IMG/VR virus record: IMGVR_UViG_3300027736_000274
Location: 1-22,272 of that record
DNA length: 22,272 nucleotides
Strand: one strand, 5' to 3'
From: a virus
The stretch's first letter is position 1. The number at the start of each line of letters is the position of its first letter. Shown here piece after piece: positions 4,237-22,202 of this stretch. Under the pieces are notes generated by a model. That model had not been told where the DNA came from. It ran no database searches and was given only the letters and a program-made list of their open reading frames with translations. A program made the translations under genes and the position numbers.

Positions 4237-4530
4237 ATGACCATGACTAAAAGAACAACCAAAGAAAGAAAGCTAACCAAAGAACTCAGGGCAACAATTC
4301 GACAAAGAAATGAATTAGAAACTCAGTTGGCAGCCATCGGTCAATTCCTTCCTGGTCGCAACCCTCTGTCCCTTGAAGAAACGCAGCGTTGCATCAATGC
4401 CGCGCTTTGGAATGTGAGTGATCGTCTCACATCGCTCGAATCAAAAATGAACGGCATTTTACAAGCCGCTGAAAGCACTGAGTCCGTGATGAAGAAAATG
4501 CACGCTCTTTCTCAATTTCTAAACACATGA
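4237..4530 (+). CDS. Small basic coiled-coil protein of unknown function
   Basis: The protein has 97 residues and a very basic start (MTMTKRTTKERKLTKELRA). This is followed by heptad-like helices (QRNELETQLAAI; DRLTSLESKMNGILQAAEST) that suggest a coiled-coil oligomer. No family is recognised. ATG 4237 directly follows the T tract of the capsid terminator, with a second ATG at 4243; there is no room for a ribosome binding site. Its stop overlaps the next gene's start (ATGA at 4527), so it is translationally coupled to the glycosyltransferase gene. The first ~90 bases are AT-rich compared with the capsid gene, which fits separate acquisition. A role as adaptor or partner of the glycosyltransferases is speculation from position only. 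Confidence 0.6.
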   Translation: MTMTKRTTKERKLTKELRATIRQRNELETQLAAIGQFLPGRNPLSLEETQRCINAALWNVSDRLTSLESKMNGILQAAESTESVMKKMHALSQFLNT

Positions 4531-6230
4531 GCCAAATTTCCCTCTGCATCATCGCTGGCAACGTCGCGCACTACCTGCCGCGTTTCCTTGAATCCTTCAA
4601 ACCACTCGTGGACGAGATCGTTGTCGTCCAGGCCATCGGAAATCAAGCCAGCGATAGCACACTCGACATCGCCCGTGCGCATGGCTGCCATGTCGCCGTG
4701 TATCAAAACGATCCCGCGCATGATTGGCCTCATGTGGATGACTTCGCTGCTGCCCGTAATCTCGCCTTCTCCCTCGCCTCGCATGCGTGGGTTATGTGGG
4801 CAGATACTGACGACACCATCTCACCGCACAGCATCAAGCAACTCAAGCAGGCTCTCGCCACCGCGCATCGCGACACCGTGGCCATCGCCGCGCTTTACAA
4901 CGTGCCCGAGGATGGCTTGTGTGTGTATCGCGAGCGCATCGTGCGCAAAGGTCATGCCCGCTGGATATATCCCATCCACGAGACGCTCGATTTTTCCGAT
5001 GAGGAAAAGACGCACATCATGCGTGTCCCTGCCGTCATCGAGCACATGCCCGATCTCAAACGTGGTCGCGTGGCCAATGACGAGCGCAATGCTCGCATTC
5101 TCGAAAGCATCCCTGCCGAAGTGCGCACCACGGGTCACACCTTCCATTTGTTTCAGTCGCTCCGCGCTCTGGGTCGCATCGGTGAAGCCATCCAGATCGC
5201 CACCGGTCTCCTGCGTTCACCGCCGCCCGATCTCGGTGCGCCAGAGCACTATGAACTGCTCATCGCCCTCTCGCAGCTCAACGACTCACCGGCGAACCGT
5301 GCGCAAATGCTCCTGCAAGCCGTTGGAGTCTGCCCTGAACGCCGCGAAGCCTATGGCGAACTCGCCCTGGCAGAGATCGGCTTGAACCGTCCCGAGGCCA
5401 TGCTCGCATGGACGACGGCCATGATGTCACTGCCTCCGCCCGTTGGCTATCTCTGGAATGCCCGTGCTAAATACTACGGTTGGTGCGGTGTGAATCTGCA
5501 CGCCATGGCACATCGCGCTAATAATCAGCACCACAAAGCCGATGCGCTGGAATTGAACCACTTCAAAGCCCACGGTGCCAAGATCAGCCTGCTGCATGCC
5601 ACGCGCGGCCGTCCTCAACTCGCCGCCAAGTCCCGGCTCATGTGGTTCAATCGTGCAGACAACCCTGATGCCATCGAGCACATCTTCGCCTTCGACCCCG
5701 ATGACGAAGCCAGCAATGCGTTGAGTCTTTATCGGCATGTCGTGCCGATGGATGGCAGCGGTGCCAGTGTCGGTGCATGGAATGCCGCTGCACAAGCCAG
5801 CGCCGGTCAGATACTTGTCCAGCTCAACGATGATTTCATCCCGCCGATGCATTGGGACACGCTCATCCTCGAAGCCTTCGCAGGCAAGATCGGCCAGCCA
5901 GCCGCGCTGCATGTCAGCGATGGCCACCGCACCGACGATTTGCTCTGTCTCTGCATCATCACGCGCGCGCGCTACAAGCAGCAAAATCATTTCCTCCACC
6001 CGCGCTTCAAGTCTGTTTACAGCGACAACTATCATTCCGTCATGGCCTACAATGACGGCATCGTCATTGATGCGCGTCACATCGTCATTGAGCACGACCA
6101 TCCCTATTTCAAAGGCGGCGAAGGATGGGACGAAACCTACGCGAAGCACAACTCCGCCGAACGCATGGCCGAAGGCAAAGCCATCTTCACCGAACTCACC
6201 GGACTCGATCCCGATCAAATGACACCATGA
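4527..6230 (+). CDS. Two-domain glycosyltransferase (GT2/GT-A type)
   Basis: This 567-residue protein transfers sugar from a nucleotide-sugar donor. Domain 1 (about 1-200) starts ISLCIIAGN. It carries DFAAARN (72-78) and the DxD-type metal site WADTDD (91-96), and resembles GT2 enzymes of the SPBc2/TPR-associated type. A helical, TPR-like middle (about 200-345) follows. Domain 2 (about 350-555) restarts a GT fold with ISLLHATRGRP (353-363) and the acidic motif QLNDDF (432-437). No membrane segment is seen, so it should act in the cytoplasm. It overlaps both neighbours by ATGA and stands directly behind the capsid genes. That suggests it glycosylates a virion protein rather than cell-surface sugars, which is inference. 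Lipopolysaccharide modification is the main alternative. Confidence 0.83.
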   Translation: MSQISLCIIAGNVAHYLPRFLESFKPLVDEIVVVQAIGNQASDSTLDIARAHGCHVAVYQNDPAHDWPHVDDFAAARNLAFSLASHAWVMWADTDDTISPHSIKQLKQALATAHRDTVAIAALYNVPEDGLCVYRERIVRKGHARWIYPIHETLDFSDEEKTHIMRVPAVIEHMPDLKRGRVANDERNARILESIPAEVRTTGHTFHLFQSLRALGRIGEAIQIATGLLRSPPPDLGAPEHYELLIALSQLNDSPANRAQMLLQAVGVCPERREAYGELALAEIGLNRPEAMLAWTTAMMSLPPPVGYLWNARAKYYGWCGVNLHAMAHRANNQHHKADALELNHFKAHGAKISLLHATRGRPQLAAKSRLMWFNRADNPDAIEHIFAFDPDDEASNALSLYRHVVPMDGSGASVGAWNAAAQASAGQILVQLNDDFIPPMHWDTLILEAFAGKIGQPAALHVSDGHRTDDLLCLCIITRARYKQQNHFLHPRFKSVYSDNYHSVMAYNDGIVIDARHIVIEHDHPYFKGGEGWDETYAKHNSAERMAEGKAIFTELTGLDPDQMTP

Positions 6231-6820
6231 GCCGCCCCCTTCTCTCCATCCTCACCCCCGCCTGCTGGGAACGTGCCGACAAAGTGCGCACGCTTCGCGA
6301 TGAACTCAAATCGCAGATCGACCAATGCCCATCCGGCACCGTGGAGCATCTTGTGCTGCTCGATAACCGCACGCGCTCTGTCGGCCTCAAACGGCAAGCC
6401 CTGCTCGATGCCGCGCTCGGTGACTACATCGCCTATGTGGACGACGACGACTGGATTGCGCAAGACTACGTCCCCGCCCTTTTGGCTGGCATCGAATCCG
6501 GTGCCGATGTCATCACCTTCGAGCAGCAAGTCCACGTCAACGACCAGCAAGGCAAGGTCGTCATGCATCTCGGAGCCACTGACGAAGTCTGGAAACCGGG
6601 GCGCATCACCCAGCGCAATGCCTGGCAAGTCTGCGCATGGAAACGCACCATTGCCCAGCGCGGCCTCTTCCCCGACATCATGGACGGTGAAGACCTCGCA
6701 TGGCTCCGCCAGATCCGCCCCTTCGCCAAAACCGAGCACCACATTCCCGCAATACTGCACACCTACCGCTTCAACTCCGCGCAAACCTTAGCCACCGGCA
6801 AAACCGCTCCAGGTTCATAA
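6227..6820 (+). CDS. Small GT2 family glycosyltransferase
   Basis: The 197-residue protein begins RPLLSILTPACWER. It carries SVGLKRQALLDAALGDYIAY followed by the acidic metal-binding motif VDDDDW (71-76), the hallmark of GT-A/GT2 enzymes. The late segment MDGEDLAWL resembles the catalytic-base (ED) region. The start at 6227 is chosen because it forms ATGA with the preceding stop; an in-frame extension upstream lies wholly inside the previous gene. It has no membrane anchor and is shorter than most chromosomal GT2 proteins. With the preceding two-domain enzyme it gives three GT domains in one transcription unit, which could build a short glycan stepwise. The unit ends at the terminator at 6948-6988. 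Confidence 0.82.
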   Translation: MSRPLLSILTPACWERADKVRTLRDELKSQIDQCPSGTVEHLVLLDNRTRSVGLKRQALLDAALGDYIAYVDDDDWIAQDYVPALLAGIESGADVITFEQQVHVNDQQGKVVMHLGATDEVWKPGRITQRNAWQVCAWKRTIAQRGLFPDIMDGEDLAWLRQIRPFAKTEHHIPAILHTYRFNSAQTLATGKTAPGS

Positions 6821-7095: not shown

Positions 7096-7445
7096 GCCTC
7101 GTCAATGCCATCAAAGCCGCCGAGCTGCGCACGCTGGACTCGCTCACGGCGCAGTATCCCGGCACCGTCGTCATCGACGGCACCACCTACAACAACGTCG
7201 CCGTTTTGGCTGAGCGTGGCATGGTCAAAGACGCCAAAGGCGGCTTCAAACAAGGCCGCATGCTTACCATCTTCATCGCCTATTCGCGAATCGCAGAATC
7301 CACGCTGGTCGATGCCAACCGTGGCACCAATAAGCGTCTCGACGTCACCCACCTCGGCAAATCCTACCGACTCACCGACGACGGTGTCGAGCACGATCCC
7401 CACAAAACCCGCTGGCAACTCTCCGCCGCCGAGTCCGTCTCTTAA
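7092..7445 (+). CDS. Probable neck/head-tail joining protein
   Basis: The protein has 117 residues and is predicted beta-rich after an N-terminal helix (SLVNAIKAAELRTLDSLTAQ). The end, HLGKSYRLTDDGVEHDPHKTRWQLSA, recalls the beta-barrel end of lambda FII-like head-tail joining proteins, which are also about 117 residues. The evidence is only length, position between the head genes and the tail-completion gene, and this weak pattern. The start at 7092 forms ATGA with the preceding 29-codon frame; an alternative ATG at 7065 would overlap that frame by 31 bases. A different neck role is equally possible. Confidence 0.5.
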   Translation: MSLVNAIKAAELRTLDSLTAQYPGTVVIDGTTYNNVAVLAERGMVKDAKGGFKQGRMLTIFIAYSRIAESTLVDANRGTNKRLDVTHLGKSYRLTDDGVEHDPHKTRWQLSAAESVS

Positions 7446-14348: not shown

Positions 14349-14885
14349 GTGGAAGCCACGATCTACGTCAACACCAGCACCAAGAAAGCCACGAGCACAC
14401 TGGCTGGCACCGTTCCGCCAAGTATCCCCGTGGTGCTGCAAACGCACCTGAAGCTAACGACGTATTTCTTCGCCACCGGTGCATCTCCCGCACTGCTCTC
14501 CGGTGCCACGTTTCGCGTCGCGCTTAAAGACAAACTGACACCCTCCGGCTCCGTGCTCGCCCTGCTGAGTGCCGCCACGGCGACGGGTGCCACCTACTAC
14601 GAATTCGAGTGGACAAGTGTGGATTCCGCCGCTCTACGCACCCTCATCGGTGACGCTGAAACCTGCGAAGCCGTCCTCGACATCGAGTGGACGATTGCCA
14701 CGACCATCGAGCGTGTGCAGATCCCGGTGGTTATTACCAACTCATGGCTGCGCACCGCTGACTCCGCCCCTGACTTTATCGCCTTCGCCGCATCGATCAC
14801 CTCGCTCGGTTATCTCCGCCTCGTGAATAGCAGCGGCACCGTCTATCACCTCGGCCTCAACACCGGCGAACCTCCCTCCACATGA
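14349..14885 (+). CDS. Probable baseplate upper protein / fibre adaptor (BppU-like pattern)
   Basis: The protein has 178 residues from GTG 14349; the only support for this start is the TTGACA motif at the standard distance and the onset of good coding sequence. Beta-strand pairs around ATFRVALKDKLTPSGSVLAL and YYEFEWTSVDSAALRTLIGD recall N-terminal domains of BppU-type proteins. These attach receptor-binding fibres to the baseplate and specify default linear material properties in their 'kV..G' strands. The protein ends HLGLNTGEPPST and overlaps the tail-fibre gene by ATGA (14882), which supports a functional pair. The family call is a pattern impression and unsure. Confidence 0.5.
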   Translation: MEATIYVNTSTKKATSTLAGTVPPSIPVVLQTHLKLTTYFFATGASPALLSGATFRVALKDKLTPSGSVLALLSAATATGATYYEFEWTSVDSAALRTLIGDAETCEAVLDIEWTIATTIERVQIPVVITNSWLRTADSAPDFIAFAASITSLGYLRLVNSSGTVYHLGLNTGEPPST

Positions 14886-16786
14886 GTCTCCGTTTCCTCC
14901 GTTCTCTCCTGTTCTTGTTTCTGGCGTCCTCAGCGTCCGCGCAAACTATCGAACAATACGAACTCCGCAAACGCACCAGCACCGGCTTCACCGCCTACGG
15001 CATCACCTTATCTAATGGTGATGTCCTTGGCTTAACGAGCAGCGTGCCCGCCGCACGTCCAGTGACATCCGGTGCACTCGCTGCCAATGCTGGCAAGATC
15101 GTTGAATTCTCCACCGCAGGAACCATTCATGCGACTGCCATCAACGCGATGTCTGAAGGCTCCGCCGCGCCTTATACACAAGCCGCACCGACCGCTTTCT
15201 ACTTCGTGCCGTCCAACGGTATCACCGGCACGCTCGCCACTGCGACGCTTACCACGAACCGCACCTGGACGCTGCCAGATACCACCGGCACCCTCATCAC
15301 CACCGGCGACACCGGCACAGTGACGAGCACCATGCTCGCAGGCAGCATCGCCAACAGTAAGCTCGCCACCGATCCACTCAACGCCAGCAACCTCACCAGC
15401 GGCACCGTGCCCACCGCCCGCCTCGGCAGCGGCACCGCGAACAGCACCACCTATCTTCGCGGAGACAACACTTGGCAGACCATTTCCAGTGGCGGCGTCA
15501 CCAGCATCACTGGCACCACCAACGAGATCGCCGTCACCGGCACCACCACTCCCACGCTCTCGCTGCCATCCGCGCTCACCTTCACCGGCAAGACGATCAC
15601 CGGCGGCACGTTCAGCAGCCCCACACTCACCACGCCAGCCCTCGGCACCCCGAGCGCCATCGTGCTCACCAATGCCACAGGCGCACCGACTGGCATCAGC
15701 CTCACGAAGGCACAACTCAACACCATCGTCAGCGATGATGATCCCGCCTATGTGGGCACCGCGAATACCTTTTCCGCTGCGCAGACGATCTCCGTCGCAG
15801 GTGCTAACTCCACACCACCGCTTTATTTAACGGGTGCACTCAATGTCGGTGGATCGGCGACGACGACATTCCCTCACATATTCCACCAACCCACGGGTGC
15901 AACAGCAGCCACGACATGGAGCGCTGGGGCGAACGCTGGCACGGTGTTCGGAGCGAATGAAGCAACGGGGTTTAGTGGCAATTTCTTTGACGGCAAGGTG
16001 GCAGGAGTCACCACCTGCAAAATCATCGGCTCCACGGGTGCCATGAGCGTTTACACTTACAACGCCATCAACTGGGCGGTCTATGACAGCGTCGGCGGCA
16101 CGCTCCGCTCCTATGAACAAGGGGGTCGTTGGTTTGCGAATGACGGCTTTACCACGACGGGCAGCAGCCTCTCAATGCAGGATACCTACTCTGGAATCCG
16201 CCTGCGCAATGGTTTCTGGATCGGCTGGTCGGCAGACACGACCTATTATGGCACCAATGATTTGATTCTTGGCCGCGACGCGGCAGCGACGCTACAACTG
16301 GGCGCAGACCACGCCACCACGGCAACCAACCAACGCATTAAAGCCCACGATGTGACAACCGGCACCGGGGCCAGTCTCACTCTCAGCGGTGGCACGGGTA
16401 GCGTCGCAGGTGGTTCGGTCATCCTCGCCACCAGCGCCACCACGGGTGCACCCGTCGCTCATTTAACCGTTAGTGCTAGCGGTGGCATCACGCTCGGCAG
16501 CGGTGGCGCTGCCATCACCAAAGTCCTCACCGCCACTGCCACCCTCGACTTCGGCGACACCGCCCCGCAGGCCACCACTGACCTCACCATCACCGTCACA
16601 GGAGCGTCAGATGGCGACATCGTTGTCATGGGTATCGTCAACGCGTCACAGCCTGCTGGTGCGTGTGATTTTCGTGCATGGGTAAGCGCAGCCAACACCG
16701 TCACCGTTCGCTTCTCCAACAACAACCTCGTCGGCAACATCAATCCTGCCTCCGGCACCTTCCGCGCCACCATCATCCAGCATTAA
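14882..16786 (+). CDS. Tail fibre protein with an N-terminal signal peptide
   Basis: The 634-residue protein is rich in Thr/Ser/Gly/Ala. It has a shaft typical of phage fibres: TWTLPDTTGTLITTGDTG, then ASNLTSGTVPTARLGSG and STTYLRGDNTWQTISSGG, around residues 130-205. A central beta domain follows (about 320-450). The C-terminal domain (about 545-634, with TATLDFGDTAP and FRAWVSAANTVTVRFSNN) is one widespread in fibres. It should bind the host surface. Oddly, residues 1-20 form a clear Sec signal peptide: Arg-Leu-Phe-rich core, ASA before Gln21. Virion fibres are normally assembled in the cytoplasm. The next in-frame Met is near residue 69, so no better start exists, and ATG 14882 sits in an ATGA overlap. 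The signal-coding bases match repeat family A (see findings). Confidence 0.82.
   Translation: MSLRFLRSLLFLFLASSASAQTIEQYELRKRTSTGFTAYGITLSNGDVLGLTSSVPAARPVTSGALAANAGKIVEFSTAGTIHATAINAMSEGSAAPYTQAAPTAFYFVPSNGITGTLATATLTTNRTWTLPDTTGTLITTGDTGTVTSTMLAGSIANSKLATDPLNASNLTSGTVPTARLGSGTANSTTYLRGDNTWQTISSGGVTSITGTTNEIAVTGTTTPTLSLPSALTFTGKTITGGTFSSPTLTTPALGTPSAIVLTNATGAPTGISLTKAQLNTIVSDDDPAYVGTANTFSAAQTISVAGANSTPPLYLTGALNVGGSATTTFPHIFHQPTGATAATTWSAGANAGTVFGANEATGFSGNFFDGKVAGVTTCKIIGSTGAMSVYTYNAINWAVYDSVGGTLRSYEQGGRWFANDGFTTTGSSLSMQDTYSGIRLRNGFWIGWSADTTYYGTNDLILGRDAAATLQLGADHATTATNQRIKAHDVTTGTGASLTLSGGTGSVAGGSVILATSATTGAPVAHLTVSASGGITLGSGGAAITKVLTATATLDFGDTAPQATTDLTITVTGASDGDIVVMGIVNASQPAGACDFRAWVSAANTVTVRFSNNNLVGNINPASGTFRATIIQH
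14887..14924 (+). repeat. Repeat family A copy inside the tail-fibre signal peptide
   Basis: The bases coding residues 2-14 of the fibre match 7451-7488 at 31 of 38 positions without gaps. They match 9498-9524 with two mismatches in the first 27. Four mismatches in the 7451 comparison are the AAAA to TTGT change that would otherwise place a lysine-rich break in the hydrophobic core. Confidence 0.72.
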
Positions 16787-16788
16787 TT

Positions 16789-17238
16789 ATGAAACATATC
16801 CTTCTTCTGTCTTTTTCCTTGTGCCACCTGCCTTGTGCATTCTGCCTTGCCGCCGATCCCATCGTCATTGTCACCAGCGCCACCAGCGTCACCGTTGATA
16901 GCACTGATTACGGTAAACCCGCCGATGCCATCGCCAACAATAAACAGCTCGCACCACTGATTCAGTCCGCGCTGGAAAAATACGCCGCAAAGCTCGAAGC
17001 TGACAAAGCCGAAGCCATCGCCGAGCACGGTGCGCTTAAAGGCCGCATCGACTCAACGCTGAAAGGTCTGCTCGAAGCCGAACTCAAGACCGGCGACGGC
17101 CCGCGTGCGCAACTGTTGCGTGATTTGATAGAGCAGGCCGGAAAGTCTGACGCTGAACTTAAGCTGGAAGCAGCTAAAGCCGCCGAGGCCGCCGCCATCA
17201 AAGCCCGCCAAGAAGCCGAAGCCGCCCTTGATAAATAA
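16789..17238 (+). CDS. Exported coiled-coil protein at the head of the lysis cassette
   Basis: The 149-residue protein starts with a Sec signal peptide (MKHILLLSFSLC..., cleavage likely near FCLAA before D). A short beta segment follows (IVIVTSATSVTVDST), then a long charged helix (LEKYAAKLEADKAEAIAEHG; AKAAEAAAIKARQEAEAALD). The heptad-like helix suggests a coiled coil in the periplasm. The start lies three bases after the fibre stop; upstream extension in frame is inside the fibre gene. Neighbours are a membrane coiled-coil protein, a lipoprotein, a holin candidate and the endolysin, so a role in lysis or envelope disruption is likely. It could also be a fibre-associated factor. The signal-coding bases resemble repeat family B. 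Confidence 0.6.
   Translation: MKHILLLSFSLCHLPCAFCLAADPIVIVTSATSVTVDSTDYGKPADAIANNKQLAPLIQSALEKYAAKLEADKAEAIAEHGALKGRIDSTLKGLLEAELKTGDGPRAQLLRDLIEQAGKSDAELKLEAAKAAEAAAIKARQEAEAALDK
16811..16850 (+). repeat. Repeat family B copy inside a signal peptide
   Basis: CTTTTTCCTTGTGCCACCTG (16811-16830) matches CTTTTGCCTTGTGCCTCCTG (11411-11430) at 18 of 20 positions, and 25 of 30 when extended, without gaps. Here it codes part of the signal peptide of the exported coiled-coil protein. Confidence 0.7.
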
Positions 17239-17242
17239 CGCT

Positions 17243-17554
17243 ATGAGTCACGACGAATCCAGCGCCATTGAAAGCATGCGCCAAACCATCAAATGGTTGA
17301 TCGGTGGCATCGTCGGACTTCTCAGCGTCGCCTTTGCGGTCGGTGCGTGGGTGGCATTACAGGAGTCTAAAATCGCCAACCTCCAAGACGCTGACCGTTC
17401 CAGTATTGCCGACCGTGGGGATCTGCGCGGCCAGTTGCGCGGGCAGTCTGAATTGATCAACACACTCCGTCAGGACACCGCCCTGCAAAACCGCGACCTG
17501 CAATACATCCGCGAGAGCGTGACCAAGATTGAGAAGATCATCACCAAGCCGTGA
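17243..17554 (+). CDS. Membrane-anchored coiled-coil protein, candidate inner-membrane spanin
   Basis: The 103-residue protein has a short N-terminal part and one membrane helix (about residues 16-40: IKWLIGGIVGLLSVAFAVGAW). A coiled-coil domain follows (about 42-103: SELINTLRQDTALQNRDLQY; IRESVTKIEKIITKP), presumably in the periplasm. Topology, length and the lipoprotein gene directly behind it fit an i-spanin (Rz) that pairs with an o-spanin (Rz1) to fuse inner and outer membranes at lysis. A class of holin or a haemolysin XhlA-like protein is an alternative, since XhlA proteins share 'SHDESSAIESMRQTIK'-like starts with a C-terminal rather than N-terminal anchor. ATG 17243 is chosen over a TTG at 17228 that overlaps the previous gene. 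Confidence 0.6.
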   Translation: MSHDESSAIESMRQTIKWLIGGIVGLLSVAFAVGAWVALQESKIANLQDADRSSIADRGDLRGQLRGQSELINTLRQDTALQNRDLQYIRESVTKIEKIITKP

Positions 17555-18043: not shown

Positions 18044-18121
18044 ATGGCCCTCGCCCTCGGCATCCTCTTTGCGGTCTTCGCGTTGAGCATGTTTATCGCC
18101 TGCGCCACCTTTCGCGCATGA
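18044..18121 (+). CDS. 25-residue single-span membrane peptide coupled to the endolysin
   Basis: This tiny frame codes a hydrophobic peptide (MALALGILFAVFALSM, then FIACATFRA) that is a single membrane span. Its stop forms ATGA with the endolysin start (18118), the coupling used across this phage, and this supports real translation. It sits in the lysis cassette between a two-segment holin candidate and the endolysin. It could be a pinholin, an antiholin, or a holin partner. No sequence family can be claimed at this size. Confidence 0.55.
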   Translation: MALALGILFAVFALSMFIACATFRA

Positions 18122-18615
18122 GTGCCTTCACTGAGCGTCTTGTTCAAATCGCCCTCACCGAGGTCGGTGTGAAAGAAGATGGCACGAGCAATCGTGGTAA
18201 GCGTGTCGATGATTACCAACGTTCCACGTGGCTCTCTACCAAAGACTGGGGTGCCTGGTGTGCCGCTTTCATGTGTTGGTGTATCCGTGAAGCCATGCAC
18301 GCCGAGGGCATCAAGGAAACCACCGGCTTCGCTCGTCCGCAAACCGCTGGCGCGTGGGACTTCGAGCGGTGGTCGCTCGCTCAAGACGCCACCACCAGCA
18401 CCCGCAAGCCTGCCGGAATGGATATCAAGCGCGGCGATCTCGTCATCTTCAAATTTAGCCACATTGGACTCGCGCAATCCGCGCCCGATTCACACGGCAT
18501 TTTCACCACCGTTGAAGGGAATTCCAACGCTCGCGGTTCCCGCACCGGTGGCATGGTTTGCGAAGGAAAACGCAGCATTGATCAGGTGCGCTCACGTATT
18601 CGGTTCACGATTTGA
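18118..18615 (+). CDS. Endolysin, CHAP/NlpC-P60-like cysteine peptidase
   Basis: The 165-residue enzyme carries the order Cys-His-polar residue of the papain-like CHAP/NlpC fold. C48 is in DWGAWCAAF, H115 in KFSHIGLA, and EGNSN (133-137) supplies the third site. RGDLVIF before the histidine is typical of the CHAP 'GD' strand. It should cleave amide bonds in peptidoglycan. There is no signal peptide or membrane span, so export depends on the holin candidates upstream. It is a single-domain enzyme with no binding module. It is translationally coupled to the 25-codon frame and faces the integrase gene, which is on the other strand. Confidence 0.85.
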   Translation: MSAFTERLVQIALTEVGVKEDGTSNRGKRVDDYQRSTWLSTKDWGAWCAAFMCWCIREAMHAEGIKETTGFARPQTAGAWDFERWSLAQDATTSTRKPAGMDIKRGDLVIFKFSHIGLAQSAPDSHGIFTTVEGNSNARGSRTGGMVCEGKRSIDQVRSRIRFTI

Positions 18616-21613: not shown

Positions 21614-21939
21614 AGCTGCACCCTCACCTCTCAGTGCTGGATGAAGCGGCAGCGGCGACGAGTGGAGACCGGCGGCGGGATTATGGGACGGCGACGGCGA
21701 ACCATGAACGTATCGCGGATGGGTGGAACTGGTATCTGAATGCGCGTGCGGTGAAAGATGCGCCGATCTCCTCACTGGATGCGGCGATGATGATGATCGT
21801 GCTGAAGATTGCGCGGTCGGTGCATCGGCCCAAAAGGGACAACTTTGTGGACATCATCGGCTATGCGAAATGCGGGGCGCAGATTGCGGGATTTGAGCCT
21901 GAATTTGAACAGGAGAAAACGGAGGGAATGGAGAGATGA
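21610..21939 (+). CDS. DUF6378-like early protein
   Basis: The 109-residue helical protein has the pattern RRRDYGTATANHERIADGWN followed by MMMIVLKIARSVHRPKRDNF and VDIIGYAKCG. This matches, from memory, the DUF6378 family of phage proteins. The all-helical build with acidic and lysine residues recalls MazG-like nucleotide pyrophosphohydrolases, but the MazG metal motif (ExxE...ExxD) is not clearly present. ATG 21610 forms ATGA with the preceding stop; longer in-frame starts lie inside the previous gene. It overlaps the next gene the same way. A nucleotide-pool or replication role is a guess from family context. Confidence 0.72.
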   Translation: MKLHPHLSVLDEAAAATSGDRRRDYGTATANHERIADGWNWYLNARAVKDAPISSLDAAMMMIVLKIARSVHRPKRDNFVDIIGYAKCGAQIAGFEPEFEQEKTEGMER

Positions 21940-22202
21940 GCCGGACGATCACGGTGATACGACGGAAGCTGGGGCGGCACCGTGCATTAGGGCAGGCCGA
22001 TGGGGCGGGAACGATTGAGATAGATGAGAGGCTGAAGGGGAAACCGCATTTAGAGATCCTGATTCATGAATTTCTGCATGAATGGGAGTGGCTGCTGCCC
22101 GAGGTGATCGTGGCGAGTTTGGCAAAGAAACTGACACGTTTTCTGCACAAGAATCGTGTCAGGGTGATCGAGCCTGATGTGGAGCCGGTGATCGGGGAGT
22201 GA
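21936..22202 (+). CDS. Tiny HExxH metallopeptidase-like protein
   Basis: The 88-residue protein contains a zinc-binding HEFLH motif (H-E-x-x-H, about residues 44-48) in ILIHEFLHEWEWLLPEVIVA. A possible third ligand is the downstream Glu (WLLPE, about residue 55). It is preceded by a beta-hairpin (GTIEIDERLKGKPHLEILIH) and followed by an amphipathic helix (SLAKKLTRFLHKNR). I recall similar ~90-residue HExxH proteins in phage-like regions of Verrucomicrobiota and Planctomycetota, without known function. The domain is smaller than SprT or ImmA/IrrE peptidases. An ImmA-like role, cleaving a repressor, would fit the early position but is unproven. A Shine-Dalgarno-like GGAGAG precedes the ATGA start. 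Confidence 0.7.
   Translation: MSRTITVIRRKLGRHRALGQADGAGTIEIDERLKGKPHLEILIHEFLHEWEWLLPEVIVASLAKKLTRFLHKNRVRVIEPDVEPVIGE

Follow-up and report, generated by a model that had tools for sequence, protein, structure and literature searches.

Why would a tailed phage place a secretion signal on the protein with which it binds its host? To our knowledge, the tailed phages studied so far add their fibres in the cytoplasm, and the locus considered here encodes a long tail fibre that opens with a predicted Sec signal peptide. It lies in a virus record of 22,272 bases (the whole stretch that was analysed, hereafter the window), the gene content of which reads as that of a temperate tailed phage. A partial portal gene, a ClpP-like protease, a coat-like protein and tail genes (with a tape-measure match) lead up to an adaptor gene at 14349; the fibre gene at 14882, a small gene at 16789, a holin-like protein, a CHAP endolysin and an integrase-like gene follow it, the portal, coat and integrase names having been assigned by reading the sequence and by comparison with phage P8625. 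The features on which the argument turns are as follows.

14349..14885, + strand: BppU-like adaptor, 178 aa, GTG start, without signal peptide; residues 1-137 correspond to the BppU N-terminal fold
14805..14882, + strand: adaptor C-terminal tail GYLRLVNSSGTVYHLGLNTGEPPST, a putative fibre docking site (presumed function)
14882-16786, + strand: fibre open reading frame, 634 aa
14882..14941, + strand: Sec/SPI-type signal peptide MSLRFLRSLLFLFLASSASA at the start of the fibre open reading frame
14942..15061, + strand: type A N-terminus of the mature fibre, QTIEQYELRKRTSTGFTAYGIT..., conserved; the side proposed to dock
15062..16786, + strand: distal fibre region, comprising shaft plus C-terminal domain, which differs between relatives
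15377..15493, + strand: shaft motif NLTSGTVPTARLGSGTANSTTYLRGDNTWQT, common to the fibres of many phages
16789..17238, + strand: second signal-peptide protein (MKHILLLSFSLCHLPCAFCLA followed by AD), 149 aa, Ala/Lys/Glu-rich and coiled-coil-like
17243..17554, + strand: small holin-like protein, a single transmembrane stretch; XhlA and holin PHROGs matched weakly, under the curated cut-off
18118..18615, + strand: CHAP-domain endolysin; Pfam CHAP above cut-off, PHROG endolysin

Elsewhere in the window, two glycosyltransferase family 2 genes lie within the structural block (4527-6820), and glycosyltransferase-like genes are also present near the tail genes of the related prophages L158 and L160. 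An 88-aa protein encoded at 21936-22202 has an HExxH-like motif (HEFLH), the signature RKLGRHRA and no Pfam match, and is common to many otherwise different phages, low-GC ones included; tried as an unbiased phage sampling marker, it was dropped from the counts, matching as it does many low-GC phages, probably of other hosts. Rfam and tRNA scans gave no matches.

The preliminary description had called the protein at 14882 a phage tail fibre, and the comparisons bear this out. The long tail fibre distal subunit of Synechococcus phage S-SRM01 has a matching shaft motif, and in cultured phages the C-terminal module of several relatives bears, among other annotations, those of tail fibre, tail spike and minor tail protein. 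The C-terminal module of seven related fibres (L153, L169, L171, L173, L175, L179 and L224) occurs in 261 cultured phage records, and the fibres of cultured phages with this module, among the representatives checked, have no signal peptide. One relative (L166) matches a PHROG tail fibre family and another (L005) a PHROG virion structural family; the window fibre itself has no Pfam, PHROG or NCBIfam match. The same C-terminus is common to two fibres with one kind of N-terminus (L009 and L016, type A below) and one with another (L185, type B), which reads as the module shuffling typical of receptor-binding proteins. No muralytic domain was found on the fibre by Pfam or PHROG, and the window has a separate CHAP endolysin at 18118.

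The signal peptide has the anatomy of a Sec/SPI leader by an n-h-c test, with two arginines (R4 and R7), an unbroken Leu/Phe core (LLFLFLASS) and A18-S-A20 immediately before Q21. The coordinates first proposed for it are right: the ATG is at 14882, ASA comprises residues 18-20 and Gln21 is encoded from 14942, so that the open reading frame opens with MSLRFLRSLLFLFLASSASA followed by QTIEQYELRKRTS, with predicted cleavage before QT. This start does overlap the upstream gene (14349-14885) through ATGA; the overlap is also present in L050, L051 and L053, and spacers of 2-73 nt occupy this position in the other viral relatives of types A and B. The start had been called secure, and it is: the ATG is the sole one in frame, 20 codons ahead of the conserved mature sequence, and because the window fibre has no in-frame ATG, GTG or TTG before mature residue 34, a later start cannot yield the conserved mature N-terminus. 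Signal peptides were called by a home-made n-h-c rule and by eye, and this scorer gives false positives, S-SRM01 for example scoring 3.66 against a cut-off of 3.6. About 2% of random stop-free stretches from the same loci pass the simple n-h-c test. Some 23 of 281 genes in 19 loci lie above the cut-off, and 18 of these roughly 23 encode the fibre or its immediate downstream neighbour. Residue +1 of the window fibre is Gln, and there is no Cys at the cleavage site such as a lipobox would place there. Pfam and hydropathy revealed no anchor such as an autotransporter barrel, a PEP-CTERM or a T9SS domain, and no clear transmembrane stretch, in the mature protein, the top 19-residue hydropathy being 1.41, although absence of a profile match is no proof. 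Export of the fibre is a well-supported prediction from sequence, and we infer that export and cleavage before Gln21 would also take place in vivo.

Comparison with relatives places this leader above chance. The type A mature N-terminus, of the pattern QT[IV]GQ[FY]ELRKRTS[ST]GFT.YG[IV]T, recurs in five further loci (L009, L016, L049, L050/L051 and L053), and a 1.5-Mb contig contains a divergent member (L225, G522) within a prophage-like region. Each of the six loci, the window included, has its own signal peptide, unrelated in sequence to the others, and it is because the five other loci with the same N-terminus all carry such unrelated signal peptides that the one in the window exceeds chance expectation. 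Across the six loci, which like the other loci compared here are not all independent, the first 40 mature residues have a mean identity of 76% (pairwise 60-100%) and the last 40 residues of the upstream protein a mean pairwise identity of 69%; for the signal peptides the mean is 32% vs 26% shuffled, and for the distal parts of the fibre 29-34%. The fibre is conserved at its putative docking end and shuffled at its distal end. Between L050 and L053 the DNA is 92% identical upstream and 98% at the mature start, and the signal peptide 56%. In none of the type A loci is there a start codon within the first 20-34 mature residues. The type A leader is conserved in function but not in sequence. In two loci (L016:7960-8060 and L049:7890-8006) the signal-peptide codons contain CT-rich repeats (CTTCATC and TGCCTTC units), and the same repeats are also present in the non-coding spacer before the start, which suggests that repeats of this kind gave rise to some signal peptides or reshape them. 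Their presence in both spacer and leader would also suit a leader that is no signal peptide at all and serves as a hydrophobic plug for virion attachment or as a translated spacer. We regard this as highly improbable, given that a start codon is found only upstream of the leader, that the leaders hold the n-h-c order and mostly end in an AxA-like stretch before Q, and that the sequence conservation expected of a plug is absent from them.

The trait extends beyond type A. Type B fibres, defined by a mature start of the form Q[TV]K.V.K.........L.. plus a GKTLTI.SG-like motif, were found at 20 viral loci with a GC of 0.55-0.63, and a signal peptide is present at all 20 of them, in eight unrelated kinds. 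It is present at none of 15 homologous low-GC loci (GC 0.34-0.47), and most of those with the start covered begin MSE[IV]KVNKISPR. Among prophages, type B with a signal peptide is found in L224 and in L165 and L166, which belong to a single genome (contigs of 567 and 780 kb), and L153 has a further fibre N-terminus, again with a signal peptide. Type B is found both on a podo-like backbone (L167/L168, contigs of L034/L037) and beside tape-measure genes (L166); its occurrence on differing backbones fits a physical adaptor-fibre pair, although linkage alone could also give the pattern. The signal-peptide fibre is a recurrent trait, broader than first described and present also in unrelated phages.

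What such a fibre might bind is suggested by the gene directly ahead of it. The 14349 protein has no profile match, and its AlphaFold2 model (pLDDT 82.7) finds its best structural matches among phage neck, baseplate and tail-tip proteins, including the N-terminal domain of TP901-1 BppU. By VIA-align, the model reaches Z 9.5 to the TP901-1 baseplate (4v96; 118 residues, rmsd 3.5), Z 8.3 to the T5 tail tip (7qg9_L) and Z 8.2 to the ORF48 N-domain (3uh8), which like 4v96 is a phage baseplate entry. Residues after about 130, where the BppU C-terminal beta-sandwich was looked for, are modelled at a pLDDT of 51-65. Homologues of this adaptor are present in all type A relatives and end in ..H[LI]GLNTGEPP at all type A loci, and the adaptors of type B loci (L167-L186, L165/L166) have another ending, a PDD......WK-like tail. 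The type of adaptor tail pairs with the type of fibre N-terminus, a pairing that could be mere linkage of neighbouring genes. The idea that the adaptor tail is homologous to the fibre N-terminus was unsupported by hhalign.

Two layouts can be distinguished among the relatives. In eight prophages (L154-L156, L158-L161 and L164) the BppU-like domain starts a protein of 394-814 residues without a signal peptide, whereas in loci with a short adaptor the fibre is a separate gene and has one. The apparent rule is that a separate fibre gene carries a signal peptide and a fused adaptor-fibre does not. A fibre in L002 (7542-9098) is 68% identical to residues 245-504 of the window fibre, starts with a leader that is no signal peptide and is not preceded by a short adaptor; one distal module would thus be used both with and without export. 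The fused relatives also show that cytoplasmic assembly is possible, and the signal peptides vary between loci in length and hydropathy, so that export efficiency may vary. Both observations would accommodate a leaky export in which a cytoplasmic fraction of the fibre is assembled normally and an exported fraction has a second role, such as decoy, debris adhesion or sharing with neighbours. All signal peptides nonetheless appear strong, with an acceptable cleavage site retained in each, and the sequence gives no hint of an internal start, which makes this dual use improbable.

The gene that follows the fibre frequently encodes a signal peptide too, a point absent from the preliminary description. 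Homologues of the window's 16789 protein with signal peptides are present in L049 and L053, with a conserved C-terminal and a differing N-terminal part; a LamG (concanavalin-like) signal-peptide protein replaces it in L009, L016 and L185, and other small signal-peptide proteins follow the fibre in L050, L165, L166, L175 and L180. One phage contig (L005:7351-16317) has five signal-peptide genes around the fibre, at 7351, 7734, 9377, 10870 and 13825. In a prophage-like region (L229:4759-6528) a protein of 589 residues carries a signal peptide (MKKLLLSLFLLPSLVAA), matches SGNH hydrolases weakly and is possibly another exported fibre type.

The conserved export signal and an accessory exported gene, lectin-like LamG in L009, L016 and L185, are what would be expected if the exported fibre were not a virion part, or not mainly one, and instead covered receptors on the infected cell and on debris, limiting superinfection and progeny loss while the virion binds via the adaptor or another protein. 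Phage lipoproteins such as T5 Llp block receptors and provide a precedent. Such a secreted receptor decoy is nevertheless unlikely: the tail module of the window has no second long fibre gene, the fibre's conserved docking-type N-terminus adjoins a dedicated adaptor, and with neither lipobox nor other anchor the protein should remain periplasmic until lysis. The same export signal, together with host-like leader sequences, could mark a moron gene product of the lysogen exposed on the cell surface, and bacterial surface proteins can have fibre-like domains. The gene, however, sits in the late block between the adaptor and the lysis genes and is ATGA-coupled, promoter and terminator scans gave results near shuffle level, with promoter-like sites near chance, and neither an outer-membrane anchor nor a transmembrane stretch was found in the protein by Pfam or hydropathy; a lysogenic conversion adhesin is therefore quite improbable. 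We rank the receptor decoy first among these rivals, the dual role next and the lysogen adhesin after it.

We give an even chance to the explanation that the exported, BppL-like fibre docks on the BppU-like adaptor at lysis and so completes a split adhesion device. The preliminary description had left open attachment of the fibre after lysis, a decoy and a lysogen adhesin; the comparative evidence favours attachment at or after lysis and speaks less for the other two, because the adaptor lies directly ahead, the gene belongs to the late block and is the only long fibre, the docking side is conserved and no anchor was found. The secretion signal on this host-binding fibre is real in Verrucomicrobiota phages and prophages, and it implies that the fibre probably leaves the cytoplasm and joins the virus only when the cell bursts. 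In the proposed sequence of events, the adaptor would be synthesised in the cytoplasm and attached to the tail there, and the fibre, the receptor-binding half of the device, would be made with its cleavable signal peptide, sent out through the Sec pathway of the host and trimmed to leave Gln21 as the first residue. The mature fibre would then wait in the periplasm, where it should stay since neither an anchor nor a clear transmembrane segment was detected in it. Once the holin opened the inner membrane and the cell began to lyse, virions and periplasm would mix, and the conserved mature N-terminus would dock on the C-terminal tail of the adaptor to complete the particle. Docking may precede full destruction of the envelope, which would limit dilution. 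The signal peptide, the fibre modules, the fold of the adaptor, the two layouts and the recurrence of the trait follow from sequence and comparison; attachment to the virion and its timing are, together with export and cleavage in the cell, the parts of this scheme that we infer. Several points count against it: assembly after export must outpace dilution at lysis, the adaptor appears to lack the long C-terminal domain with which BppU holds BppL in TP901-1, and a cultured verrucophage, P8625, manages without an exported fibre.

The prophages allow a host to be proposed. Signal-peptide fibres occur in chromosomal Verrucomicrobiota prophages (L165, L166, L153, L224 and L225), and these relatives point to Verrucomicrobiota as the host phylum of the viral contigs. 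Among 387 genomes sampled from the phylum to which a Verrucomicrobiota MAG (L054) belongs, the adaptor profile matched two, in one case weakly; in one family it matched 10 of 68 genomes, and a wider profile matched 18 of 288 genomes of the order. Both fibre N-termini are rare in genomes: type A was found in 1 of the 288 genomes of the order, type B gave no clear fibre match in the 387 genomes of the phylum, and a scan of the genome collection with a three-sequence fibre N-terminus gave zero matches. A broader proposal, to which we attach a little less than even odds, is that a recurrent class of Verrucomicrobiota tailed phages completes its virions outside the cytoplasm, a Sec-exported fibre, often with a second lectin-like or coiled-coil protein, meeting the virion-borne adaptor only after the inner membrane has been breached.

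Among known systems, the closest in organisation is that of TP901-1, in which BppU holds BppL receptor-binding trimers, other P335 phages having one long BppU (PMC3893620, PMC5301393). Both there and here an adaptor with the BppU N-terminal fold is followed by a separate receptor-binding gene, and both have a fused layout as well. The TP901-1/P335 host is Gram-positive, unlike here; the window adaptor is shorter than BppU, with a low-confidence C-terminal tail apparently in place of the BppU C-terminal domain; and no signal peptide is mentioned for BppL (PMC3893620), whereas the window fibre has one. Verrucophage P8625 (KP792622) shares the head module of the window (ClpP-like protein 50% and coat-like protein 26% identical), and its gp22, annotated as tail fiber protein, has an N-terminus that looks BppU-like by eye, though not by profile. 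Unlike in the window, adaptor and fibre appear in gp22 as one protein without a signal peptide, and its authors report a signal peptide in none of the P8625 proteins (PMC4642752). According to PMC6199706, the DGR target proteins of phages are without the signal peptides seen on their bacterial counterparts. Sec-exported endolysins (Lys44 of fOg44 and SAR endolysins; PMC6116005) resemble the window fibre in that a late phage protein crosses the inner membrane via the host Sec pathway before lysis. They are lysis enzymes, however, and the fibre in the window matched no muralytic domain. In filamentous phages pIII, the virion adsorption protein, is made with a cleaved signal peptide, and is thus an adsorption-type protein with a signal peptide like the window fibre. 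Those phages leave the cell by extrusion across the envelope and do not lyse it, whereas the window belongs to a tailed dsDNA phage that encodes a holin-like protein and an endolysin. No precedent for a Sec-exported tail fibre was found in the open-licence PMC literature or the cultured phages searched. We class the finding with the split BppU/BppL adhesion device, the probable export of the receptor-binding protein being the new element.

If true, this would be an unusual way to complete a tailed phage. A fibre made for export would separate the host-range protein from the virion until lysis, and it could be swapped between co-infecting phages. The joining step would coincide with holin triggering, which makes it directly testable, and the layout rule, with a signal peptide on separate fibres and none on fused ones, can be checked on cultivable verrucophages. 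For annotators of these phages, a signal peptide is no ground for discarding a fibre gene.
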